This document shows positions 43,941 through 58,130 of a stretch of DNA of 64,000 nucleotides, in pieces; positions within the stretch are counted from its first letter, which is position 1, and each line of letters opens with the position of its first letter. The DNA is from Asanoa siamensis (GTDB lineage Bacteria; Actinomycetota; Actinomycetes; Mycobacteriales; Micromonosporaceae), in assembly GCF_016862555.1 (NCBI RefSeq), contig NZ_BONE01000046.1, positions 1 to 64,000 of the forward strand. Direction: 5' to 3'. A program made the translations under genes and the position numbers. Under the pieces are notes generated by a model that searched no databases, was not told the DNA's origin, and saw nothing but the letters and a program-made list of their open reading frames with translations.

Positions 43941-44139
43941 GTCCGCGACGGTAAACGACGCTGTCCGCTGGCGGGCGCGGGGACACGCGGGCGAAGGGCT
44001 GGCTCCCTCCGTCGGGTCCAACCACTGGGCGGGGGTCAGCGGCCCCCATGGCGCGGGGCACCTGAGTTCGGCGCGGCTTCGACCTGGGCGCTTGGAGCGC
44101 CGAGCCCCATGGGTCACACCACGAGGGGCACGTCCCTGT

Positions 44140-45576
44140 TCACGCTGTTGTGGGGGCAGCAGCGTGTGTCTGCTGGTCGGTGCGGAGCAGCAGGCGCTGC
44201 AGCTGGCCACCAGCGACGAGATCGGCCAGGTGTGCTGCGTAGAGAGAGAGCTCAACCGCCGCTGGCTCGAGCGATGGCGTCGCCGGTGGTGGTCGCCGGC
44301 CGCGGCCGCGGCGCTGGGCGGCGGGCGGGCTGGCGGCGAGGGCCGCCGCGCGGCGGTTGGCGAGTTCGGCGTCGATTCCGGGTAGACCGGTGGTCAAGAC
44401 GGGCAGATCAGCCGGTCGGCCGTCATGATCGAGGAGGAGCGGTTCGGCGGCAAAGACGACCGATGTTGGCTCCTGGCCGGCGATGCAGGCGCAGATCGCG
44501 GCGATCGCCGCCGCGGCGTGCCGGGCGGCTGAGGTCCGCACGAGGGCACGCAGGACCGGCTCGTGCTCGGCGAGCAGCGCGGTGCGCTGGCGCCAGTGGT
44601 CGGCGTCGAGAGCGTCGGCCGCGGCCCGCAGCACGTCGCGGTGTGCGGCCTCAGCGCTGATCGGCGGCGTCTGGTCGGTTGGACAATGGGGCGCCTCGTA
44701 TCGGGCACCGTCCCGCCGCAGCTCTTCACGCTGGGCGATGACGTTGTCGAGGCGCTGCCGCAGCGACCATGCCACGCTGCCCAGTGTGGACAGGTGTTTG
44801 TCGACCTCGCCTGGCCACGTGAGCCGCCCGGTTGGGTCGGGGGCCCGTACCGCCGGGTACACGCGGGCGTAGGTGGCGAAATGCCGCCGGTAGTGGTCGC
44901 GGCCGGCATCGTTGAGCGCCCAGCCCGGCGCGCCCGCGACGGCGTACTTGTAGCGGGATGCCGCCTGCGCGGTCAGGGCCACCCGCTCGATCAGCGGCCC
45001 CGTTTTGCGCTCCTCGAGGTATTGCCAGGCGGACCGTCGGGTGTCGGCGGGGACGCCGCCGGGCCCGGCCCGCCACAGCTCGACGATGACCTCCCACAGC
45101 CACTGCGAGACCAGGCCGCGCGGTGCCCTCCCGGCGTTGCGGTCGTCGACGCCGCTGGCCCGGGCGACCTGCCGGCCGCGGGTGGTCATCCGCAGCGACA
45201 GCAGCCGGGCCTGCGGCTGCCACCATCGCTGCGAGCCTTGCGGAACCTCTTCCAGGCGCTGGTCGACCAGGCCGAGGTCCGCGAGCTCGGCCGGGGCGGT
45301 CAGCAGTCGCCTGCTACGTCGGGTGGTCGCGTCCAGAGCGGCGCGCACCTTGCCGGGCGGTGCACCGGGTCCGGCATCGACGTACCCGAAGCGGTGCCAC
45401 CGCCATTCCTCAGCAGGCCGACGTCGCCGACCCTCCGACCAGGCGTCGCGCTCGTACGCCTCTGCCGCCTGGTCAACCACGTACGTGGCACGAAGCAGCT
45501 CCTGCTGGACCGGATTCAACATCGCCCACTGCTGCGAGGGCGGCGGCGCCGTCCTGCTGCCGGTCACCGCTCCCAC
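44140..45576 (-). CDS. large hypothetical protein, last gene of the 45.5-53 kb operon
   Basis: This 478-residue, helix-rich protein has an N-terminal part (LNPVQQELLRATYVVDQAAE) that looks like a winged-helix or MarR-like segment with a wing (SLRMTTRGRQVARASG). A Pro-rich region near the C-terminus is followed by a last helix. The GTG start overlaps the recombinase gene by 13 bases. Placement directly after the recombinase suggests a role in the same element. No family is recognised. Confidence 0.6.
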   Translation of the reverse strand: MGAVTGSRTAPPPSQQWAMLNPVQQELLRATYVVDQAAEAYERDAWSEGRRRRPAEEWRWHRFGYVDAGPGAPPGKVRAALDATTRRSRRLLTAPAELADLGLVDQRLEEVPQGSQRWWQPQARLLSLRMTTRGRQVARASGVDDRNAGRAPRGLVSQWLWEVIVELWRAGPGGVPADTRRSAWQYLEERKTGPLIERVALTAQAASRYKYAVAGAPGWALNDAGRDHYRRHFATYARVYPAVRAPDPTGRLTWPGEVDKHLSTLGSVAWSLRQRLDNVIAQREELRRDGARYEAPHCPTDQTPPISAEAAHRDVLRAAADALDADHWRQRTALLAEHEPVLRALVRTSAARHAAAAIAAICACIAGQEPTSVVFAAEPLLLDHDGRPADLPVLTTGLPGIDAELANRRAAALAASPPAAQRRGRGRRPPPATPSLEPAAVELSLYAAHLADLVAGGQLQRLLLRTDQQTHAAAPTTA

Positions 45577-46805
45577 CGACGATCCTCTTCCGCGTCCCGG
45601 GTGATCGGTGCTACAGCGGGGGGTTCGTTTCGCTTCGCGGCGCGGCGCGTGGCCCGGCCGGACGCGAGAACGTAGGCGGGGTCGCGGTCGAGGTTGTCCC
45701 GGTCGCGGTCGTAGCGGCGGGTGGTGCGGGGGTCGGCGTGGCCCATGGCGTCCTGGACGTCCTCGAGCGCGACGCCGTACTGCTTGGCAGCGGTCGCGGA
45801 TGCGTGTCGTAGCGAGTGCGGGGACAGTCGTGCGGCCGAGGGGATGCCTGCCTTGGCCGCGAGACGTCGGATGAGGAGGAAGACGTTCGGGGCGGCCAGT
45901 CGCCCGGTGCCGGCGGCGCCGGTCGCGAACAGGGGACCGGACAGCATGTTCACGGTGAGTCCGGCGGCCGCCGCGCGGGCTTTGAGGTAGTCGTCGACGG
46001 CGTCGCCGGTGTCCGGTGGCATCGGTCGTTCGCGGGGCCGGCCGCCCTTGCCCACGAATCGCAGGGTGCGGTGGCTGGCGTTGTAACTGAGGTCGTCAAC
46101 GTCGCGGGCGAGGGCCTCGTCTATGCGGAGACCGAGGTCGGCGAGGACGTGTAGCAAGGCCCGGTCGCGCATCGCGGCCAGGTACCTGGCGAGCAGGGTG
46201 GGGGATGGGTTGGCCCTCCAGCGGGCGGCCCGGTCGGCGGCCCGCGCGTCCGCTGCGGCGAGCAGCGCGTCGACCTCGTCGAGGGTGAGTCCCACGGTGG
46301 CCGACTCGTTGGGGATTTTCGGGCGTTTGACGCCGTCGAGTGGGTTCCGGGTGATCCGGCCGTCGGTGTTGACGACCAGGTACGTGTACCAGCTGGACAC
46401 GGCTGCCAGCGCCCGGGCAACGGTGCTCGGTGCGGCCGCGCGGCCGGCGCGGCCGCGCAGCGACCGCCATACCCGGAATTGGCCGACGTCGGTGGGGCGG
46501 GCGGACAGCGGGTCGAGTCGTTCGGTTTCGCACCACTGCAGGTATACGGACAGGTCTCGCTGGTAGGCCTGCTCGGTCTTCGGTGACTCGGTCTCCAGCA
46601 GCCAGGCGACGGTCAGCCGGCGGATGCTGTACCGGCTGCCGTCGTCGGGCGGAAGGGCCGGCAGCCGGGCGACGTCGGCGCTGAGCCGGGCGACCCGCGC
46701 GCCGGCTGGATCCCAGTCCGCTGCGGCGCTCGACGCGGGCGCGCGACCCACCTCGTGCGGGTTCAACGCCATGGTGCCCGTCGGCCTGGGCGGGGTCGCC
46801 GTCAT
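45564..46805 (-). CDS. tyrosine recombinase / integrase
   Basis: This 413-residue phage-type integrase has an N-terminal SAM-like core-binding domain (TEQAYQRDLSVYLQWCETER) and a C-terminal catalytic domain. The catalytic residues are visible: Arg in LGLRIDEALA, Lys in VGKGGRPRERP, HxxR in SPHSLRHASA, His in MGHADPRTTRRY and the Tyr nucleophile of that last motif. The ATG at 46805 is coupled (ATGA) to the zinc-motif gene before it; 76 upstream codons in frame are out-of-frame Arg-rich sequence. It would integrate or excise a mobile element, or resolve plasmid dimers. No attachment site could be placed. Confidence 0.93.
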   Translation of the reverse strand: MTATPPRPTGTMALNPHEVGRAPASSAAADWDPAGARVARLSADVARLPALPPDDGSRYSIRRLTVAWLLETESPKTEQAYQRDLSVYLQWCETERLDPLSARPTDVGQFRVWRSLRGRAGRAAAPSTVARALAAVSSWYTYLVVNTDGRITRNPLDGVKRPKIPNESATVGLTLDEVDALLAAADARAADRAARWRANPSPTLLARYLAAMRDRALLHVLADLGLRIDEALARDVDDLSYNASHRTLRFVGKGGRPRERPMPPDTGDAVDDYLKARAAAAGLTVNMLSGPLFATGAAGTGRLAAPNVFLLIRRLAAKAGIPSAARLSPHSLRHASATAAKQYGVALEDVQDAMGHADPRTTRRYDRDRDNLDRDPAYVLASGRATRRAAKRNEPPAVAPITRDAEEDRRWER

Positions 46806-47242
46806 CGGCGGCCGCCGGGGACGACGCGGAGTCGCGGTGGCGGCACCGGCAGCCCGAAGCCTTCGCGGGCGGCCCGGTCCAGGTGCATCTGGCGTTGGGC
46901 GGCGCCGTCGCGGCAGGATTGCGGCAGGTCTCGGCAGGCCAGGAACTGGTCGCCGGCGGGGGCGCTGGCCAGGATGCGCAGGTCGACGTCGCGGAGCTGC
47001 CGCCAGGACCGTCCGGTGTAGTCGTGCCCGCACAGGCCACAGACCGGAGCGCTGAGCTCATGCTCGGTGTGTAGCGCGGCCAAGGCGCGTCGCTCGTCGA
47101 CGCGGGGCGTGGTCGTGTAACCGCACGAGCAGACCGCACGCCATCTCGCTCCGGAGGACGCGAACCCGGCGACCAGGTGCATCACCATCGGTCCAGCCGC
47201 CCCGTCTTGCCCCGGGCCGACTGCGGGACGATCGCCAGCCAT
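46802..47242 (-). CDS. hypothetical zinc-motif protein
   Basis: This 146-residue protein has CSCGYTTTP and, about 30 residues on, CGLCGHDYTGR, plus two further Cys, so it probably binds zinc. The start ATG overlaps the stop of the gene upstream (TGATG), and the stop overlaps the integrase start. It could be a small partner of the recombinase such as a directionality factor, but nothing specific supports that. Confidence 0.6.
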   Translation of the reverse strand: MAGDRPAVGPGQDGAAGPMVMHLVAGFASSGARWRAVCSCGYTTTPRVDERRALAALHTEHELSAPVCGLCGHDYTGRSWRQLRDVDLRILASAPAGDQFLACRDLPQSCRDGAAQRQMHLDRAAREGFGLPVPPPRLRVVPGGRR

Positions 47243-48045
47243 CAGCGCCCACCAGCCAACGCGGCCGCAGGATCGACCATCGCGGCGGCGATCGCCTCGT
47301 CGGACAGGCCGGACCGGCGCGCGGCCACGACCGCACGCTGCTCGGTGCGGGAGAGCCCGGCGCGCAGGTCGGGGAGCACCGAGAGCAGCGCGGCCGCGGC
47401 CGCCGGGCTGAGGTGGTCGTCGCCGATCGCCGCGGCGACGGCGGCCTGCAACGGCAACGGTGCGCCGCGCTCCCGCCACGCAACGGCGTGGTCCGCGTCG
47501 GCGTGCGGCGCGTACCGGGCGGACAGCACGGTCAGCGGCGCGAGTTCGGCGCCAGCCTGCGCGGCCTCGGCCAGGAGCCAGCCCAGCCCGCGATCGCGGA
47601 CCAGGGACGCGACCATCTGGTCGTCGACGTAGCCGCCGGGATCGGCTGCCGTCGCCTCGGCCAGCAGACGCCGGGCAAGGACCTCCTGGAGTGGGTCATC
47701 GGGGCGGTCGGGGGAGTCGAGGTCGCGAAGCTCAGATTCGACCAGCCACAGCGGACCGGACCGGCTGCTGCCTCCGTCGAGGCGGCCGCGCCGGCCCGCG
47801 GCCGCGAGCCGGATCGCGGTCAGCGCGATCGCCATCATCGAGTGGCTGCGGTAGAGCCGGACCTGCGCGCCGGCCAGGTCAGCGGCGTCGACCAGCGCGC
47901 GGACGGTAGCCATGCCCGGCCCGTCGGTCCACTCCAGCCGCCAGACAGGACCGTTGTCATGGGTCGGCTCAACCGGCGCGCCGTACCGCTTCTCCAGCTC
48001 GCGGGCCAGGGTGCGTAGCCGCCGGGGGCGGTCGGTGCCCGTCAT
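47242..48045 (-). CDS. hypothetical protein, paralogue of the gene at 51481
   Basis: This 267-residue protein shares its whole layout with the 269-residue protein at 51481-52290: a helix ending ELEKRYG, then RLEWTDGPGMATVRALVDAA, an RLYRSHSMMAIALTAIRL block, a variable acidic middle, and the strand VLSARYAPHADADHAVAW before a helical end. The pair is 3.5 kb apart in the same operon. Function is unknown. The start was chosen for the TGATG overlap with the gene upstream. Confidence 0.65.
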   Translation of the reverse strand: MTGTDRPRRLRTLARELEKRYGAPVEPTHDNGPVWRLEWTDGPGMATVRALVDAADLAGAQVRLYRSHSMMAIALTAIRLAAAGRRGRLDGGSSRSGPLWLVESELRDLDSPDRPDDPLQEVLARRLLAEATAADPGGYVDDQMVASLVRDRGLGWLLAEAAQAGAELAPLTVLSARYAPHADADHAVAWRERGAPLPLQAAVAAAIGDDHLSPAAAAALLSVLPDLRAGLSRTEQRAVVAARRSGLSDEAIAAAMVDPAAALAGGR

Positions 48046-49010
48046 CAGCGCCCCGTATCGGGCGTCGCGCGGAGCGATCCGGGCGCGTCTGCTGCGGCCC
48101 GCCGCGCGTCCCGCGGTGGGTCTGCCGCGACGAACCGCCGGACGGCGGCGATCACCGCGTCGACCTCGTCCCACTGATCGGCCTGGCCGATCAGCGCCAC
48201 GGCGATCACTTCGGGCGCCGCGCCGGGATGGGTCGCCAGCAGCCGCTCGAAGACCCCGGCCGCGACCTCTGTGGTCAGGTGCGGAGGTACACCGCGTACC
48301 CAGGAGGCGGCCCAGTCCCGCAGCGCCGCGCGCAGCGACGCGTTCGGGTCGACCGGCGCCCGCGCCGGCTCGGGCTCGGCCGCCCGGGCGGCGACCGACG
48401 GCGACCCAACCAAGGTCGGCGGCGCGGTGATGACCGGCCGCCCGTCACGCAGCAGCAGGGTCAGCGGCCGCACCGGGACATGTTCCTCGACGGCACCCTC
48501 CGGAACGGAGCCGCCGGACCGGCGCGGGGCGTATTCGGCGGCGTACGCCCACGGCCACCCTTGAGCGATGTCGTCGTGGTGGGCGCGGCACCACAGGGAG
48601 CGGTCGGCGGCCAACACGATGTCGCCGGTCTCCCAGTGCTCCTCGGCGGCCAGGACCTCGCCGCTGACGACGTCCCGGTCAGCGACCGGCGCGAACCCGT
48701 CGGCGGTCCGGGCAAGCTCGGCGCCGCGGCCGCGTGCCCGGGGCGCAGCGGCGCCTGGCGCGATCGGCGAAGCGGGTGCCTGGTCGTGGGTGGCGAGCCA
48801 GTGTTCGCCGGCGTCGGTGAGCCGCCAGTAGTCCTGCTGCCCGCTGTGTTTGGCTTCCGCTGTGACGTAGAACAGCGTGGCCAAGCCGGCGCCGACCAGC
48901 TTGCCCAGGTGCCGGTTGGTGCTAATCGAGACGGTGTCGACGGTCCATTCACGGCGGCCGCAGCGGCGGGCGGCGTCGAGTAGGTCCGGTGTCGGCGCGA
49001 GCTCAACCAT
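48045..49010 (-). CDS. hypothetical protein with N-terminal winged helix
   Basis: This 321-residue protein has a winged-helix-like N-terminus (SISTNRHLGKLVGAGLATLF, then YWRLTDAGEHWLA). A beta-rich middle and a C-terminal helical domain starting SLRAALRDWAASWVRG follow. It may bind DNA and regulate the operon. It overlaps its neighbours by a few bases at each end. Confidence 0.6.
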   Translation of the reverse strand: MVELAPTPDLLDAARRCGRREWTVDTVSISTNRHLGKLVGAGLATLFYVTAEAKHSGQQDYWRLTDAGEHWLATHDQAPASPIAPGAAAPRARGRGAELARTADGFAPVADRDVVSGEVLAAEEHWETGDIVLAADRSLWCRAHHDDIAQGWPWAYAAEYAPRRSGGSVPEGAVEEHVPVRPLTLLLRDGRPVITAPPTLVGSPSVAARAAEPEPARAPVDPNASLRAALRDWAASWVRGVPPHLTTEVAAGVFERLLATHPGAAPEVIAVALIGQADQWDEVDAVIAAVRRFVAADPPRDARRAAADAPGSLRATPDTGR

Positions 49011-51480: not shown

Positions 51481-52290
51481 TTAGCGCGGGGCCGGCTCGG
51501 GCGGCCCGGCCCGACGCGCGGCCGCGGTGATGGCGGCTTCGGTGCGGGCCCATTCGGCCCGCAGGTCGGGTAAGAGCGCGAGCAGTGCCGCCCCCGCCGC
51601 GGCGGGCGGGTCGTCGTCGGCTAGGGCGAGGGCGACGGCGGTGTGTAGCGGCAGGGGTTGGGCCCGGTGGGCCCAGGCGACCGCGGCGCCGGCGTCGGCG
51701 TGCGCGGCGTAGCGGGCGGACAGCACGACCAGCGGCGGCACCGTCGCGCCGTTGGCGATGACCTGTTCGACGAGCCAGCCGACGCCGCGCGTGCGGATCA
51801 GGTCGACGGCGGTTTCCGTCGCGTCCAGCGGCACCGGGCTGCCGCCGGGCACCCACCGTTGCGGCCGCGTCGCTTCCCAGTCGGCTCGGGCCGTCTTCGC
51901 TTTCGCGATGGCCGTGGCGACGAGCAGCTCTGCCAGGGCGTCCTGCAGCGCGTCGGTACCACGGTCGGGGTGGTCCAGATCGAGGGCCTCCCACTCGACG
52001 ATCTCCTGCGGATGGCGCCCACCGTCGTGGCGGCCCAGCTTTCCCGCGGTCTTCATCCGGATCGCCGTGACCGCGATCGCCTTGGTCGAGTAGCGCCGGT
52101 ACAGGCGAAGGTCGGCGCCGGCCAGATCGGCGGCGGCCGCCAGCGCGCGCACGGCTGGTTCGCCGGGCCCGTCCACCCAGTCCAGCTGCCACCTCGCGCC
52201 GGTGTCGTACGAGACCTCGAAGCGGCCACCGAAGCGCTGCTCCAGCCGGCGGGCGAACAGGCGCACCTTCCGGGCGCGGTCAGCGGCCAC
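51481..52290 (-). CDS. hypothetical protein, paralogue of the gene at 47242
   Basis: This 269-residue relative of the 47242 protein shows the same blocks (LEQRFGGRFEVSYDTGARWQ, RALAAAADLAGADLRLYRRY, VLSARYAAHADAGAAVAW). The GTG at 52290 has GGAGG six bases upstream and is preferred to a GTG seven codons earlier. Keeping both copies in one operon suggests they have split roles or form a heteromer. Function is unknown. Confidence 0.65.
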   Translation of the reverse strand: MAADRARKVRLFARRLEQRFGGRFEVSYDTGARWQLDWVDGPGEPAVRALAAAADLAGADLRLYRRYSTKAIAVTAIRMKTAGKLGRHDGGRHPQEIVEWEALDLDHPDRGTDALQDALAELLVATAIAKAKTARADWEATRPQRWVPGGSPVPLDATETAVDLIRTRGVGWLVEQVIANGATVPPLVVLSARYAAHADAGAAVAWAHRAQPLPLHTAVALALADDDPPAAAGAALLALLPDLRAEWARTEAAITAAARRAGPPEPAPR

Positions 52291-52335
52291 CGTCGTCCTC
52301 CGTCCCCGCACGCGGCGCCAGCAGGTCGGTGGCCA

Positions 52336-52797
52336 TCAGGCGTGGACCGGCTGGGCGTCGCCGAGCGACCAGCGGTCATCGCCCGGGTAGTGGCCGTGTA
52401 GGTCCGGCCACACGAGCTGCAGCGCACGCACGGTCCGGTCGGGGTAGAGACGGTGGGCGGTCGTGACCGGTGCGGTGGGCGCGTCGACGACCCGCAACGG
52501 GACCGAGGCGATCTCGTCGAGGGCCTCGCCCGGCCGCAGCTCGGCGCCGAGGCTGCGGTGGGCCGCCGTGTTGAGCAGGTGGCCGGCGATGTCGGCCGGC
52601 AATCCGCAGACGATCAGCTCGGGCAGGCCGGCGGCGGTCAGGCCGACGGTGTAGGCGAACGGCGCCCCGTTCCCGCCCCGGGCCGGGAAGACGCTCTGGA
52701 CCATCCAGCCGTGCTCGGCGATGACCCGCAGGTTGTGCTGGTCGGCGGCGTCCCGCGCGCCTGCGCCGCCGTGGTGCGTGCCGGCCATCGCGGTCAC
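52336..52797 (-). CDS. DUF4262-family protein
   Basis: This protein of 153 residues has the DUF4262 pattern: GWMVQSVFPARGGNGAPFAY running into TVGLTAAGLPELIVCGLPA, then LLNTAAHRSLGAELRPGE. The family is widespread in actinobacteria and has no known function. It starts at a GTG in a GTGA overlap with the gene before it. Confidence 0.75.
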   Translation of the reverse strand: MTAMAGTHHGGAGARDAADQHNLRVIAEHGWMVQSVFPARGGNGAPFAYTVGLTAAGLPELIVCGLPADIAGHLLNTAAHRSLGAELRPGEALDEIASVPLRVVDAPTAPVTTAHRLYPDRTVRALQLVWPDLHGHYPGDDRWSLGDAQPVHA

Positions 52798-53303
52798 CCC
52801 TGGTTTGGGGTGGCGGCGGTCGCGGCGAGCACCGCGCGGGCGAGCTGGCAGCGCGAGTCGGTCGCGAAGTAGGTGTCGGGCATGGCGAGCTGGGCGATGT
52901 CGAGCAGGCCTTGGGCCAGCGCCGCTACGGCGGCCGGCGAGGCGGCGTCGCCGTCCGCGATGCGGCCGGCGACCGCGAGGTTGTGCTCGCGCGGGTCGTC
53001 CGGGTCATGGGGAACAGTGTCGGCCGCGTCGAGGGGCCCGGTGCCGACGCTGATCGTCGGCCGGACGGTGCCGTCCTGGGCGTCCTGCCCGCGCAGCTGC
53101 CGGGCGATGCGGGCCGCGGTCGCGGCGAGCGTGTCCAGGTCGTGGGCGGCGCCGTCCCCGTCGCCGGCGGCGAGGTGGTGGTCGAGCGCGCGCAGCCGGG
53201 CGTCCATGCTCGCGCGCAGCGAGGGGTTCAGCCACAGCGGGCCGGCCGGGGTGTCGTCGGGCGGGCCGGGTTCGGAGGAGCCGGGGGTCATCGTCACGTC
53301 CAT
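52794..53303 (-). CDS. hypothetical protein, first gene of the 45.5-53 kb operon
   Basis: This 169-residue Ala/Asp-rich helical protein has no motif I recognise. Its ATG (53303) lies inside the left arm of the palindrome at 53300-53327 and has no ribosome site. If transcription starts from the TAGGAT element inside that palindrome, the message is nearly leaderless. It heads thirteen minus-strand genes that run down to 44140. Confidence 0.6.
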   Translation of the reverse strand: MDVTMTPGSSEPGPPDDTPAGPLWLNPSLRASMDARLRALDHHLAAGDGDGAAHDLDTLAATAARIARQLRGQDAQDGTVRPTISVGTGPLDAADTVPHDPDDPREHNLAVAGRIADGDAASPAAVAALAQGLLDIAQLAMPDTYFATDSRCQLARAVLAATAATPNQG

Positions 53304-53327
53304 AGGATAACAGTCATTATCCTATGG
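53300..53327. promoter_or_regulatory. perfect 11-bp inverted repeat at a divergent promoter
   Basis: CCATAGGATAA (53300-53310) and TTATCCTATGG (53317-53327) are exact reverse complements with a six-base spacer. The left arm covers the start codon of the minus-strand operon. The right side faces the interrupted plus-strand gene. The arms contain -10-like TAGGAT/ATCCTA. A protein bound here would block the operon's start, so this looks like an autoregulatory operator. Confidence 0.6.
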
Positions 53328-53337
53328 AGACAGTCCG

Positions 53338-53400
53338 GCTAGATTATCTTTTTTGATAATTTTTAAGTGTTATTTTTTCTTGGAAAGATTTAATGTAGGC
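53338..53400. other. AT-rich block with short inverted repeat
   Basis: These 60 or so bases are mostly A and T in a very GC-rich setting. They include ATTATC (53343-53348) and GATAAT (53355-53360) around six T. The block precedes the coiled-coil protein gene. It could be that gene's promoter, a partition or origin-like site, or an Lsr2 target. Confidence 0.5.
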
Positions 53401-53408
53401 TGTCCAGC

Positions 53409-53438
53409 GTGACCGTCGAGACCATCGTGACCGCCGAT
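53409..53438 (+). pseudogene. detached first 10 codons of the coiled-coil protein gene
   Basis: GTG at 53409 opens a frame VTVETIVTAD that stops exactly at the Tn7-like element. Removing the element and one CCGAT copy joins this frame, in phase, to codon SRRRPCAYP at 56662. The original gene therefore probably began here, with about 10 residues now cut off. No strong ribosome site precedes this GTG. Confidence 0.7.
53434..53438. repeat. target-site duplication, left copy (CCGAT)
   Basis: CCGAT directly precedes the TGTC end of the element and is repeated exactly after the other end at 56657-56661. Five bases is the duplication length made by Tn7-family transposition. Confidence 0.9.
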
Positions 53439-53463
53439 TGTCGCTTCGCAGCTGAGCTGGCGA
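53439..53463 (+). repeat. left terminal inverted repeat and TnsB-site array
   Basis: The end reads TGTCGCTTCGC, then TGAGCTGGCGA. The motif TGGCGA(A/G) recurs in the same orientation at 53458, 53478, 53489, 53509, 53619 and 53639, the pattern of TnsB-binding sites at a Tn7-type left end. Confidence 0.88.
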
Positions 53464-53637
53464 ATCCTGCGCCGGCGTGGCGAGCCAGTGGCGAGTTCTC
53501 AGGCGAGGTGGCGAGCCGTGTGAGCGCGCTGCCTTGAAGACTTCGGTGACAGGTCGCGTGAGGTGGGCGCTTTTCAACAGGGACCGGACCCGTCCGTGGG
53601 CTCTCGTCGGAGCTTGGGTGGCGAATTCTCATCGGAA

Positions 53638-54438
53638 GTGGCGAGGAATGATGTCCCGGTGCATCGAACGCGGCGTATCGGGCTGCCTGGCCCGGATGAG
53701 AACTTTGAGGCGATCTACCTGGACGATCAGGGGGTCGAGCAGCGCGTGCCATGGGGCTGGCTGCCGGAGGTGGTCGAGGCATTGGACCGGCCAGTGCGGT
53801 CGTTCCCGTCGTATCGGGGTCAGCGCAACTTTCCGGGCTGGTACTGGTCAGCGACGGTGGGCCGCCGGGTCGGTTTCGAGTCGTGGGTGGAACGTGACCA
53901 CCTGGTGGCATTGGACTTCGACCCATCGGTGACCGGGATCGTGTCGCAGCCGTTCTGGTTGCTCTGGCCGGGTGAGAGCAAGACCCGCCGGCACGCTCCG
54001 GATTTCCTCGTGCGCCTGGACAACGACGCGGTGTTGGTGCTGGACTCCCGGCCGTTGGAGCTGATCGAGGAGGTGGACCGGGAGGCGTTCGCGGTCACCG
54101 ATCAGGCGTGTGGGCTGCTGGGCTGGCGTTATGCGGTCTGGGATCGTCTGGACCCGGTAATGGTGGCCAACCAGCGGTGGCTGGCCGGCTACCGGCACCC
54201 GCGATGCTTTGACCCGCAGGTAGCCGGGCGGCTGCTGGCGGCGTTCGAGAAGCCACGCGCGTTGATGGACGGCGCCGAGCTCGCGGGTGATCCGCTCGGG
54301 ACGCTGCCGGTGCTCTATCACCTGCTCTGGCGGCGGGAACTGGTGACGGACCTGGCGCTGGTGCTGTCGCACCGCACGACCGTTCAGACCGCGCCCTCGA
54401 ACGACCGCCTCGCGATGGTGGGTGAGCGGAATGGCTGA
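53638..54438 (+). CDS. tnsA: TnsA-like transposon endonuclease
   Basis: This protein of about 266 residues runs from a GTG at 53638; a GTG at 53563 would place the N-terminus across the end repeats and is less likely. TnsA is the restriction-enzyme-like subunit that cuts the 5' ends so that the element moves by cut-and-paste. The nuclease core reads HAPDFLVRLDNDAVLVLDSR, where Asp in PDF and Asp-x-Arg correspond to the family's D...ExK-type residues. Flanking blocks ARNDVPVHRTRR and YWSATVGRRVGFESWVERDH are typical of actinobacterial TnsA-like proteins. It overlaps the next gene (ATGGCTGA). Confidence 0.85.
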   Translation: MARNDVPVHRTRRIGLPGPDENFEAIYLDDQGVEQRVPWGWLPEVVEALDRPVRSFPSYRGQRNFPGWYWSATVGRRVGFESWVERDHLVALDFDPSVTGIVSQPFWLLWPGESKTRRHAPDFLVRLDNDAVLVLDSRPLELIEEVDREAFAVTDQACGLLGWRYAVWDRLDPVMVANQRWLAGYRHPRCFDPQVAGRLLAAFEKPRALMDGAELAGDPLGTLPVLYHLLWRRELVTDLALVLSHRTTVQTAPSNDRLAMVGERNG

Positions 54439-55561
54439 GCGGCCGGGCGTGTTGCGCGTCAACGACCGGGTGATCTTCGCCGGCGGCACGCACACCGTGG
54501 TGGCGATCTCAGGTAATGCGATCCGGCTGCTGTCTGCGGCCGGGGCGACGACCGTGGTGGCATTGCCGTTCCTGCTGGCCGCTGCCGATTTCGAGCTGGT
54601 CGGAGCAGTGCCGGCGTCTCGGGTGGATCCGCATGGACTGCTGGACGCGCTGCCCGCGCACGCGCTGCGGGCCGCACGGGACTGGGAACGGCACTTGATC
54701 GAGGTCGAGACCGGTCTGGTCCCGGGCGAGGATGCGGTTGCGCGGGCCGCGTACGACCCAGCGGTGCACCCGCTTGCTTCCCGGGAGGCGGCGAAGGCCG
54801 CGGAATTGACCGCGGCCGGGACGAAGACGAGCTTGCGGACGGTCCAGCGGATGCGCCGCCGCTACCGCGAGCAGGGACTCTGGGGCCTGGTCGACGCCCG
54901 GCACGCGCGCTCGGCGAAGCCGACAGGCAACGTCGACGCGCGGGTTGTCGCCGCGGCGGCCGCGGTGGTCGAGGCGCAAACCGGTACGTCAACGGGCACG
55001 AAGTCGAGAGCGATCCGGCAGATTCGCCAGCTGCTCGACGATGAGCACGGCGAGGGCGTGGTCCAGCTGCCGTCGCCGGCGACCTGCTACCGGCTGCTCG
55101 AAGCGCTGGCGGCGGGCAAACACTCGTTCGGCTCGGCCGTGACGCGCCGGCAGACGGCGAACAAACCAGCTGGCGCCTACGCCGCGACCACGGCGAGCCG
55201 TCCGGGTGAGCAGGTCCAGTTGGACAGCACCCCGCTGGATGTGATGGCGGTGATGGACGACGGGATCCTCGGCCGCGCCGAGCTCGTGCTGGCGATCGAT
55301 ATCGCGACCCGCACGATCTGCGACGCCCTGCGGCTGCACCGCCACCAGCCCGGCGCTCTGGTCGAGCAGGCCGCCTACTTGCACGACCGCACCGGCGGCA
55401 TGATCGGCAGCCTCGACCAGCTCATCCACGAGGCCGCCAACGACGCCATCACCGATGGCACTGAGAAGATCACCAAGTCGCATCTCGACGCGGTCATCCT
55501 GGACATCGCCGCCCAGGCTCAGTTCACCCCGCCCCGCCAACGCCGGGCAGGCCAACGATGA
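54431..55561 (+). pseudogene. in-frame fusion of TnsB N-terminus to TnsC/TniB C-terminus (internal deletion)
   Basis: This protein has 376 residues. The first 300 or so are the N-terminal part of a TnsB/Mu-type DDE transposase: a helix-turn-helix (TSLRTVQRMRRRYREQGLWG) and the first catalytic Asp (QVQLDSTPLDVMAV). The text breaks off after AIDIATRTICDALR. From LHRHQPGALVEQAAYL on it matches the C-terminus of a TniB/TnsC AAA ATPase (DRTGGMIGSLDQLI, then TDGTEKITKSHLDAVILD). The second Asp and the Glu of the DDE triad and all ATPase motifs are lost. A deletion of about 2 kb between the two genes explains this. The frame is kept, so the product may still bind the ends and act as an inhibitor. 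Confidence 0.85.
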
Positions 55562-56568
55562 AGACCTGGCAGCAGACCGCCCAACAACTTCCCGTCCAGG
55601 TCAGACCGATCCGGGGCGAGACCACGATCTCCTACGTCTTCCGACTGGCCGACGCCAACGACCTCGCCCGCCCAACGATCTTGCTCGGCGCCCTCGGCCG
55701 GCCCACCCGGGGCCTGACCCAGTTCCTGATCGACGACTACGACGTTCGTCTCAACTCGCTTGCCCTGCAACGGCTCGAAACGTTCACCGGGACGCCCCCG
55801 GGCCGCCTGAGATCAGTCCTGCCCGGACTGCATCACCCGGGCGACGCGCTCCCGGAGGAGATCCCGGCCATGCGCGTCGTCAAGGCCTACAACCTGCACG
55901 ACCCATGCGACCACTGCACCGCCCGGCTCCCCGGTCGACGAGCCGCCAAGGTCTACACCTTGTATTTCCCCGTGCTCTGCCGAAAGCACCGCCGCTGGCT
56001 CGCCACCAAGACCGACCTCACGCACACCCCGGAAATCATCACCGCCCACCGCCGCCACGGCCGCCTACTCGCCGCCACCGGCGACCGCGAGTGGACCTAC
56101 CAGCAACTTCACGTCGCCAACTGGATCGTCAGCGGGTGGGCACGCAGCAGCCATCGCACCATCCCCCGGCTACACGAACTCTGGCAAACCAGGGACAACC
56201 TCCTCACCGGTCGCCACAACCTGTTCAACCCCTCTAACCTGCTCATTTATCCCGAAGCCGTCGCCCTGGCCGAGATCTTCTGCGACCTCGAATGGCGCCG
56301 CCACGTCGCTATGGTCCGCGAACGCCAGATGACGAACTTCTACAAGCGCATCGCCGCACGCCTTAACCAATCGGGCGACTTCGCCGACTGGCTCAGCCGT
56401 CCCTCGATGCGCCTCCGACGACGCGGCGGCTTCGACTGGATGGCCAACCCTCTCCAGCAATGGATCTCCCAGCTTCGCCACACCCATCAGAAGATCCGCA
56501 CCGAGTTCTACGAACGGCACAACGGATTCAGCCAGACGCCCTTCCCCGAAACTCGCCACTTCAAATGA
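55558..56568 (+). CDS. tniQ: TniQ/TnsD-family target-selection protein
   Basis: This 336-residue protein begins LPVQVRPIRGETTISYVFRL, the usual TniQ opening. It has the zinc site HDPCDHC followed by LCRKH, and a long helical C-terminal part. TniQ proteins recruit the TnsC ATPase to a chosen target. Without an ATPase gene in the element it has no local partner. The ATG overlaps (ATGA) the fusion gene. The stop is 6 bases before the ATG now used by the coiled-coil gene. Confidence 0.88.
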   Translation: MKTWQQTAQQLPVQVRPIRGETTISYVFRLADANDLARPTILLGALGRPTRGLTQFLIDDYDVRLNSLALQRLETFTGTPPGRLRSVLPGLHHPGDALPEEIPAMRVVKAYNLHDPCDHCTARLPGRRAAKVYTLYFPVLCRKHRRWLATKTDLTHTPEIITAHRRHGRLLAATGDREWTYQQLHVANWIVSGWARSSHRTIPRLHELWQTRDNLLTGRHNLFNPSNLLIYPEAVALAEIFCDLEWRRHVAMVRERQMTNFYKRIAARLNQSGDFADWLSRPSMRLRRRGGFDWMANPLQQWISQLRHTHQKIRTEFYERHNGFSQTPFPETRHFK

Positions 56569-56574
56569 GGAACG

Positions 56575-57732
56575 ATGACCAGTGACCACACCGACCCCAA
56601 CTGGCGAACCGCAGGCCAACCCACCTCAGCCTCGCCAACTCAAACGAGAAGGGACACCGATTCCCGGCGACGGCCGTGCGCGTACCCGCCCTGCGGCCGG
56701 CTGCTCCCGCCGTACGCCGGGCGCGGCCGCCCGGTGAAGTTCTGCCCGGACGACCCGAACCCGCGCTGGCCGGACGGCAAGACCTGCCAGCAGATGGACG
56801 CCGCGCGCAAGTCCGCCGAGCGCGCCACCGGGCTCGACGTGCCCCTGGATGGCTTCCGCGGCGCGGCCGGCCCCCTGGTCGAGGCCGCGGCCGCCCTCGC
56901 CGACCAGCTCATCGACACGGTCACGCTCGTGCGCGCCGTCGACGGCGGCGCCCTGGCCCGCATCGCCGACGCCGAGCAGGCCATGGGGGAAGCGCTCGCC
57001 CGGGCCGAGGCCGCCGAGCGCGACCGCGACCAGGCCGACCGCGACCGGCACCAGGCCGACACCGAACGGGCCCGGGCCGTAGCCACTGCGGCCGACGCCG
57101 AGCGGCGCGCCGAGGCCGCCCGCCGCGACGCCGAGCGGCGCGTCCGCGAGGCCACCGACCGGCTCGCCGACCTCGAACGCCAACACGGCCAAGCCCTCGC
57201 CGCGGCCGAGGCCGCCCGGGCCGCGCAGGCCGACCAGACCCGCCGCCGCGAGATCGCCGACCAACGCGCCGCGACCTTCGAGACCGAACTCGCCGCCGTC
57301 CGCGCCCACCTCGACGCCACCCGCGCCGACCTCGACACCGCCCGGGCGCAGACCACCGCCGAACACGACCAGCGGATCGCGGCCGAGCACCAGCTCGAGC
57401 GCACCGACGCCCGCAACAGCGACCTGACCACCCAGATCGCACAGACCCAGGCCGCCCTCGACACCGCGACCACCGACCGCGACCAGGCCACCGCACGGGC
57501 CCGCGCCCTCACCGACCAGCTCGCCGTCGCCGAGGCCGCGCTCGAGGAGGCCGACGCCGACGCGCGCCGCCACGCCGAGGAGCTGACCGGCCGGGCCACC
57601 GCCGCCGAAGCGCAGCGCGACGACGTCGAGCGGCGCTACCAGGCCCTCGTCGCCGCCCTGGCCGCCGGCGGTTTCACGCCTCAAACCGCGGGCGAGGACG
57701 ACCCGCAGCCGTCGACGGGCATCGACCGCTGA
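56575..57732 (+). CDS. zinc-motif coiled-coil protein (KfrA-like), restarted from the transposon end
   Basis: This is a 385-residue protein as now read. Residues 1-28 are encoded inside the transposon's right end. The ATG at 56575 has a GAGGA site that the element supplies. After the junction the native protein has a Cys motif (CAYPPCGRLLPPYAGRGRP, later KFCPDD and KTCQQMDAARKSA) that may bind zinc. About 270 residues of Ala/Arg/Glu coiled coil then end at GGFTPQTAG. This resembles KfrA-type plasmid-stability proteins or other segregation-associated filaments. The native N-terminus was probably VTVETIVTAD at 53409. Confidence 0.75.
   Translation: MTSDHTDPNWRTAGQPTSASPTQTRRDTDSRRRPCAYPPCGRLLPPYAGRGRPVKFCPDDPNPRWPDGKTCQQMDAARKSAERATGLDVPLDGFRGAAGPLVEAAAALADQLIDTVTLVRAVDGGALARIADAEQAMGEALARAEAAERDRDQADRDRHQADTERARAVATAADAERRAEAARRDAERRVREATDRLADLERQHGQALAAAEAARAAQADQTRRREIADQRAATFETELAAVRAHLDATRADLDTARAQTTAEHDQRIAAEHQLERTDARNSDLTTQIAQTQAALDTATTDRDQATARARALTDQLAVAEAALEEADADARRHAEELTGRATAAEAQRDDVERRYQALVAALAAGGFTPQTAGEDDPQPSTGIDR
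56632..56656 (-). repeat. right terminal inverted repeat
   Basis: Read on the minus strand it begins TGTCCCTTCTC, then TGAGTTGGCGA, matching 19 of 25 positions of the left end. Inverted TGGCGAG copies lie at 56631-56637 and 56552-56558 and one direct TGGCGAA at 56602-56608. Confidence 0.88.
56657..56661. repeat. target-site duplication, right copy (CCGAT)
   Basis: This is an exact copy of 53434-53438, immediately outside the right end. Confidence 0.9.
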
Positions 57733-57734
57733 GC

Positions 57735-58130
57735 GTGACCAGCGCCGTCATCGTCTAACAGCCGACCGACGCGCACGACCTGTTCGAGGCCGTGCTGACC
57801 ATCGCCGGCTACCCGGCGGCCGCGCCCCGACACCACACCACCGTCAGCGGCGTGACGCTGCTGACCGCCGAGGAGTTCCGGGGCGCGGCCGCGCACGTCG
57901 CGGTGCAGTTCGATCCCGAGCACCGCCGATCGGTCACCGACGAGGAGACCGACCCGGACGCCACCGTGCTGCTGGTCTTCACCACCACCGGCACCGACCA
58001 CACCGCCGACGCCGCGGTACACCACCGCCTCGTCGACGCGATCGGTGCCTGGCTCACCGGCCGGCACCTGCCCTGGTCATGGAGATTCGAGGATGACGTC
58101 TGGACCGTCGGGCACACCAGCCGACCGTAG
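57735..58130 (+). pseudogene. small ORF with early stop codon
   Basis: The GTG at 57735, just after the coiled-coil stop, reads VTSAVIV and then TAA. The same frame continues QPTDAHDLFEAVLTIAGYPA to a stop at 58130 and looks protein-like throughout (FTTTGTDHTADAAVHHRLVD). Translation could restart at GTG 57792 to give 112 residues, but no ribosome site is seen there. It is either a disabled gene or a shorter one starting at 57792. Function is unknown. Confidence 0.5.

Follow-up and report, generated by a model that had tools for sequence, protein, structure and literature searches.

The window analyzed here comprises 64,000 nucleotides of Asanoa siamensis (Micromonosporaceae; contig NZ_BONE01000046.1, positions 1 to 64,000, forward strand) and contains a 3.2-kb Tn7-like transposon with exact coordinates, 53439–56656. 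The element, the gene that it interrupts and its internal features, including open reading frames (ORFs), are as follows.

53409–53438, forward strand: codons 1–10 of the interrupted coiled-coil gene, with a GTG start
53434–53438, forward strand: target duplication CCGAT, left copy
53439–53463, forward strand: left (tnsA-proximal) terminal repeat TGTCGCTTCGCAGCTGAGCTGGCGA, beginning TGTC, 19/25 match to the other end
53458–53645, forward strand: left-end TGGCGA[AG] array, six copies (53458, 53478, 53489, 53509, 53619, 53639)
53563–54438, forward strand: tnsA-like endonuclease ORF (NCBIfam NF033179); the true start may be downstream of 53563
54422–55561, forward strand: fused ORF, TnsB residues 1 to ~300 in frame with the last ~78 residues of TnsC
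55322–55323, no strand: deletion junction, TnsB ...ATCTGCG / ACGCCC... TnsC, placed by alignment to relatives
55558–56568, forward strand: tniQ ORF, predicted target selector (PF06527; Salinispora homologue)
56602–56656, reverse strand: right end, with the terminal repeat at 56632–56656 (...GGGACA)
56657–56661, forward strand: target duplication CCGAT, right copy
56662–57732, forward strand: rest of the interrupted gene, no Pfam hit

A first-pass annotation, made from the letters of the window, had proposed a Tn7-like element with exact ends and a 5-bp duplication, and this assignment holds. The 25-bp ends agree at 19 positions, a level reached by none of 200,000 random 25-mer pairs drawn from 52000–58000; the right terminal repeat, ending at 56656, reads inward as TGTCCCTTCTCGTTTGAGTTGGCGA. 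CCGAT stands on both sides, and the flanks minus one CCGAT join into a 366-codon open frame from the GTG at 53409; thus, the element lies at codon 10 of a gene and its boundaries are real. Further TGGCGA[AG] motifs were observed in the right end (56602 on the forward and 56637 on the reverse strand), and knowledge of the Tn7 family makes these repeats likely TnsB binding sites. The TGT...ACA ends, the repeated TnsB-type sites and the 5-bp target duplication place the element among Tn7-like transposons. It may also supply the broken gene with a new start, since an ATG at 56575, inside the right end, opens the same frame (a 385-codon ORF).

The gene content proposed by the annotation, tnsA, a tnsB-tnsC fusion and tniQ, was borne out as well, tniQ less firmly than the others. 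The product of the first ORF matches the TnsA-type endonuclease model NF033179 (E 7.7e-86, 287 bits, cut-off 110) and, compared with the relative in genome G274, has a nonsynonymous substitution rate (dN) of 0.087 and a synonymous rate (dS) of 0.43. TniQ is a probable assignment: its match to PF06527 is weak (E 3.6e-4, 21.6 bits, under the gathering cut-off of 27), it is 67% identical to the homologue in the Salinispora element L005, and its plasmid homologues are annotated as "TniQ family protein". The in-frame fusion begins with a DNA-binding-type domain (HTH_32, E 6.3e-9), and its TnsB match ends near residue 300. The deletion spans mid-TnsB to late TnsC, about 2.03 kb, and keeps the reading frame; by arithmetic on the alignments, the loss amounts to 2039 bp when measured on G274 and to 2015 bp on L005, with no microhomology evident in either comparison. 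Missing from TnsB is, among other things, the region corresponding to residues 366–467 of the L005 protein, which align to solved TnsB proteins; judged by motif, catalytic residues two and three would also have gone with the end of tnsB. TnsC retains only its last ~78 residues and is without the Walker A motif, as read by eye from the L005 ORF. Thus, the element encodes no complete DDE transposase TnsB, in agreement with the annotation, and no TnsC AAA+ ATPase; TnsB is full length in the relatives L004 and L005, and TnsC in L005. The window element derives, by internal deletion, from a TnsA-TnsB-TnsC-TniQ family.

An end finder was run on 10 related loci for exact 5-bp repeats, which were found at five of them: L016 (4972 bp), L010 (5149 bp), L012 (5158 bp), L014 (5714 bp) and L005 (5808 bp). 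With G274 (5946 bp) there are six bounded relatives, ranging from 5.0 to 5.9 kb. L004 and G255:C303 were judged to be one record, as were L005 and G204, and each was counted once. Exact repeats were not found at L007, L008, L011, L013 or L015; L008 has 19/25 ends at 5153 bp, but its repeats match at 1/5 bases. Four other genomes, G216, G240, G016 and G062 (the last not in the end finder), gave end pieces only, with no convincing boundaries, and were not used. L005 and G274 carry several hundred extra bases at the left end, and the ancestor of the window element is therefore estimated at ~5.25 kb. A larger relative, ~8.0 kb, resides in G211 and is followed, past its right end, by a homologue of the interrupted window gene. 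Scant or no cargo is normal in this family. The description of the element as compact and cargo-free therefore needs qualification: it is cargo-free, but ordinarily so for its family, and its compactness is due solely to the ~2-kb deletion.

Short derivatives exist elsewhere in the family. One, in G297, is the L005 element shortened to 1,077 bp by a 4.7-kb deletion and 99.5–100% identical over its two pieces. In G211, a 234-bp form resembling a miniature inverted-repeat transposable element (MITE) has exact ACGGG repeats and 19/25 ends; it stands 18 bp from the left end of the ~8-kb relative, both being at L057:581–8863. The family throws off non-autonomous forms and probably moves them, an argument that does not itself cover the window copy.

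The window copy has intact ends and no transposase, and the annotation was right to suggest that it is non-autonomous; that it was spread by a helper did not find the same backing. The genome holds one copy of the element, no second TnsB elsewhere, and no match to the missing TnsC part (best E 0.34), so that neither of the signs of a non-autonomous or MITE-type population, multiple copies at separate sites or a helper within that genome, was found. Among the matches listed from 354 family genomes, the window genome included, those extending to the junction begin or end at query positions 1874–1899; no match listed from the other 353 genomes spans it, and only the genome's own match does. The exact junction was not found in viral contigs, and none of 79 matching plasmid records covers ≥80% of the query. 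The search proposed earlier for other 3.2-kb copies at different sites therefore came back empty in the window genome, the listed family matches, the viral contigs (exact) and the plasmids, while the parallel search for relatives with full tnsB and tnsC between the ends succeeded, L005 having both. No full-length element was found at exactly the same site.

These results could be explained by insertion of a full-length element that later lost 2 kb in place, leaving a dying relic never mobile when short. This alternative competes solely with the trans-mobility part of the explanation developed below, and we regard it as a serious contender, just short of an even chance. It accounts for the single copy, the missing helper and the unrepeated junction. 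A relic fits less well with three ORFs that are still open and with the low dN/dS of TnsA and of the N-terminal part of TnsB relative to G274, although TniQ is less conserved in that comparison (dN 0.12–0.29, dS 0.45–0.67); furthermore, the tnsA genes of G274 and G211 have stops, unlike the open tnsA of the window, and the family is known to have short derivatives. Open ORFs and low dN/dS are nevertheless compatible with a recent in-place deletion, because most of the divergence may predate it. By analogy with the 1,077-bp and 234-bp forms of its relatives, mobility of the window copy in trans is plausible, and it may have been mobilized by a helper since lost.

We then turn to the site of insertion, which the annotation had overlooked and which is the more interesting part; two features lie to the left of the element.

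53299–53328, no strand: perfect 12-6-12 palindrome TCCATAGGATAA CAGTCA TTATCCTATGGA, proposed target recognition site
53307–53320, inside the palindrome: dif-like core ATAACAGTCATTAT

The core ATAACAGTCATTAT has a single match in the window at ≤1 mismatch and none in 100 shuffles. At ≤1 mismatch, ATAACNGTCATTAT matches only twice in the 8.78-Mb window genome, which puts the probability of chance proximity at ~6e-5. The left flanks of independent insertions have a common motif, and their right flanks are mostly unlike. Measured from the TTAT of the core, the left end lies 122 bp away in the window, 122 bp in L005, 115 bp in G297, 129 bp in G274 and 116 bp in G211, the last being that of the 234-bp form; by arithmetic, removal of this form and one repeat would place the ~8-kb element of G211 at 129 bp. 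In all five, the core lies on the tnsA side and in the same orientation. Thus, every one of the five closest-group insertions measured, three of them short forms including the window copy, falls at 115–129 bp, as expected of target-directed insertion. A tRNA gene was rejected as the target, the only one in the window being at 44041. A serine-resolvase res site was considered on account of resolvase- and TnpA-like remnants seen by eye to the right of G297 and L005, and was rejected: the conserved block is on the other side and is a CATAA-N6-TTATG dyad. A plasmid search with the left flank of G297 gave no match. The Streptomyces loci L014:2363–8076 and L016:7139–12110 are homologous, in opposite orientation, and each ends 49 bp from a TGACCNGTCA-type palindrome, which suggests that palindromes are a wider theme.

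A 19-mer motif of this kind was found, at ≤2 mismatches, in 116 of the 354 family genomes, nearly always as a single copy, whereas the control gave 0 matches. When 41 rows (39 distinct) were aligned, ~85 base pairs proved to be conserved, with a CATAA-CaGTCA-TTATG core and an accessory AT-rich block. Neighboring genes at 30 sites with 3-kb context (L069–L098) are largely unrelated, the largest shared neighbor group covering 5/30. In an order-wide sample, the site is present in 30 of 79 same-family genomes and in none of 318 from other families. Its position was measured from dnaA in 28 of the 116 site genomes, picked for few contigs or a resident element; in 26 of these it lies at 0.46–0.54 of the chromosome. 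(Genome sizes were rounded here and in the association test below, and the G211 site position was derived from the spacing measurement.) The Frankia-type dif sequence given in the part of PMC3025954 consulted served as the canonical dif query in those 28 genomes plus G000 and G211. At ≤3 mismatches it occurs once in each of the 30, apart from the target site, which rules out canonical dif as the target and makes the motif a second dif-like terminus site. In 28 of 29 genomes, 17–87 kb separate the two sites (median 36 kb), the exception being G284; in G204 the dif-like site is off-center relative to dnaA, yet the pair is 21 kb apart. From its form, the site may itself undergo recombination. The terminus site of the window genome (G000:C126:2454–2472) is a perfect 11-6-11 palindrome, GTACACCATAA CGGTCA TTATGGTGTAC.

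Association between TnsA elements and the terminus site was assessed for 42 distinct TnsA loci in 30 genomes having both a TnsA match and the site, with TnsA fragments of one locus merged by hand. Eleven of the 42, counting the TnsA remnants in G205, G219 and G282, lie ≤25 kb from the site against 0.27 expected (p ~2e-15), all 11 have the TnsA end towards it, and three are on the window's side of the core. A scan of 11 further site loci found TGTCCT ends on the opposite side of the core, at 54 bp, in G213, G231 and G045, each with exact 5-bp repeats; the ends match at 19/25, 15/25 and 20/25, and the elements measure 5.4 kb (L130, G213), 7.9 kb (L133, G231) and 24.9 kb (L140–L141, G045). The G231 pair is weak, no better than the chance-like end pairs of 14–16/25 at other distances in G231, G253 and G282, and it therefore rests on its distance and TGTCCT end. 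Additional end-like sequences stand 54–57 bp from the core on that side in G179, G253 and G300, and partnerless ones on the window's side at 120 bp (G219), 118 bp (G179) and 114 bp (G300). Other listed end-like distances (122 bp in G045, 151 and 153 bp in G219, 166 bp in G179) were taken as chance or inner repeats. Separately, G275:C3 has four equal-score TnsA loci (2247636, 4712498, 5116404, 5211513), a multicopy TnsA element, and none of the four is within 100 kb of the terminus site.

The window palindrome has a different setting. By eye, the interrupted gene encodes an N-terminal CxxxxCG...GRP..FC motif and a long coiled-coil-like stretch, and the rejoined frame has an uninterrupted relative on the M. 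zamorensis (Micromonospora) plasmid NZ_CP107937 (33% identity, 361 aligned positions). Three further genes belong to the surroundings.

45564–47033, reverse strand: tyrosine recombinase (PF00589, E 2.6e-19), candidate to act on the palindrome
47242–48174 and 51481–52311, reverse strand: two proteins alike by eye, near the tyrosine recombinase, no Pfam hit

The recombinase is 65% identical to that of the plasmid, on which the palindrome and the interrupted gene recur as well; because all three recur there, the window insertion is probably in an integrative or plasmid-like module with its own site. The same plasmid, with its uninterrupted site, carries an annotated cas7c (L067:9150–10004) ~3 kb from the palindrome.

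One could also suppose that the palindrome is an operator of divergent genes, with the element nearby because promoter regions are benign places to insert. The palindrome does lie between divergent genes in both the window and the M. zamorensis plasmid, with spacers of 6 and 9 bp, and the palindrome 49 bp from the Streptomyces elements L014 and L016 has a different position that resembles a promoter region. The chromosomal sites, however, are flanked by unrelated genes, rarely number more than one per genome and map to the terminus, and are therefore a poor fit to the operator of a fixed gene; we consider this reading unlikely. That the fused TnsB-TnsC has been kept as a repressor or competitor that binds the ends without cutting, in the manner of the P-element derivative KP, an internally deleted repressor element of another transposon family, is more improbable still: the fusion is open, in frame and retains HTH_32 and the C-terminal part of TnsC, but an in-frame join is a one-in-three chance, the fusion was not met again among the listed matches, and no helper is left to repress.

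Taken together, we believe, with good but not full confidence, that the window element is an internally deleted, non-autonomous copy of a cargo-poor, target-directed actinomycete Tn7-like family, a subgroup of which goes to dif-like palindromes. TnsA and TnsB of a full-length relative would excise the element at its TGT ends; TniQ, most likely the reader of the site, would sit on or close to the dif-like core and recruit TnsC; and insertion would follow ~115–130 bp from the core with the tnsA side facing it. The usual target would be the conserved site near the terminus, other than canonical dif, and the window target a look-alike within a plasmid-like stretch that encodes a tyrosine recombinase of its own, where insertion broke the adjoining gene. 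Before or after arrival, the window copy would have lost tnsB and tnsC function, keeping tnsA, tniQ, both ends and an in-frame protein with the DNA-binding half of TnsB. Its movement would need TnsB and TnsC in trans, neither of which is present now, and might be hindered by the fused protein if that binds the ends.

Several observations weigh against this explanation. The evidence comes from a draft assembly, one copy and the analysis of sequence. The spacing is near-fixed, varying by 14 bp, unlike that of Tn7. With the terminus site, the window palindrome has the 14-bp core and the palindromic form in common, but the accessory block is absent, and the related plasmid palindrome has a spacer of 9 bp rather than 6, which is odd for a recombination core. 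Among the relatives, the ~8-kb G211 element has no matching repeats, the G297 duplication agrees at only 4/5 bases, the left end in G192 was not found, and G255, at a contig end, was left out of end finding. At the terminus site, 31 of the 42 TnsA loci are not within 25 kb, so that targeting belongs to subgroups, and eight of the 11 near loci lie across the core from the window group. The 11 further site loci yielded no two-ended element with exact repeats on the window's side. In the 30 context loci, upstream TGTCCT end-like sequences at 54–55 bp occur in two, namely those of G045 and G067 themselves, and no convincing ones were found on the window's side, the matches at L083 and L087 being judged chance.

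A broader reading, to which we give even weight for and against, is that a second, ~85-bp terminus dif-like site of the Micromonosporaceae and its plasmid look-alikes dock at least two TnsABC-TniQ groups, one on each side, at 54–57 bp and at ~115–130 bp, with the window copy as a movable satellite. If so, the site would be a new target class for TniQ. Tn7-like elements are classified by their targets. It would also explain how such elements could move to and fro between the chromosome and mobile elements while sparing genes at the usual site, and would bring to light a conserved site so far overlooked in a natural-product-rich family; the naturally deleted forms would delimit the smallest parts that might move in trans. 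The constituent parts are known, and the targeting of a dif-like site by TnsABC-TniQ elements is apparently new, as no published report of it was found in the open-licence literature.

Among known systems, Tn7 has TGT...ACA ends, makes 5-bp duplications and inserts in fixed orientation with its TnsD/attTn7 target on the tnsA side, and the window element resembles it in its ends, 5-bp duplication, tnsA-side target and orientation. The target of Tn7 is a conserved gene end, whereas that of the window family would be a palindromic dif-like site with its core ~115–130 bp away, and no TnsE was seen. Tn5053/Tn402 elements are TniQ-type res-site hunters without TnsA that have their own resolvase and target the res sites of serine resolvases. 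They are alike in being TniQ-type elements that choose recombination sites of other mobile elements; membership was rejected, since the window element has TnsA, none of its three scanned ORFs is a resolvase, and its target is a different, tyrosine-recombinase-like dyad.

A third comparison is with clade 2 of Benler et al. 2021, an Actinobacteria-dominated Tn7-like clade with no experimentally characterized member according to the portion of PMC8649781 consulted. Host and gene set suggest that the window family falls within it, and the end arrays of TnsB sites and the TnsA/TnsB/TnsC/TniQ set are alike. That portion gives cargo in 96% of its elements, whereas the window family is nearly cargo-free; a dif-like target is not among the clade 2 features met there, and the window copy differs further in being without functional tnsB and tnsC. 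A fourth is with IS1202-family elements, which, in the part of PMC10132070 used here, insert 5 bp from the XerC arm of dif/pdif sites on chromosomes and plasmids. They share a TnsB-like transposase, 5-bp duplications, TGT ends and fixed orientation by dif-like sites, but have one transposase gene as described there, whereas the window family has four genes including TniQ, inserts at ~54–57 or 114–129 bp and uses a site other than canonical dif. The presence of tnsA, a tnsB-tnsC remnant and tniQ, together with insertion 122 bp away, sets the window element apart from the IS1202 family.

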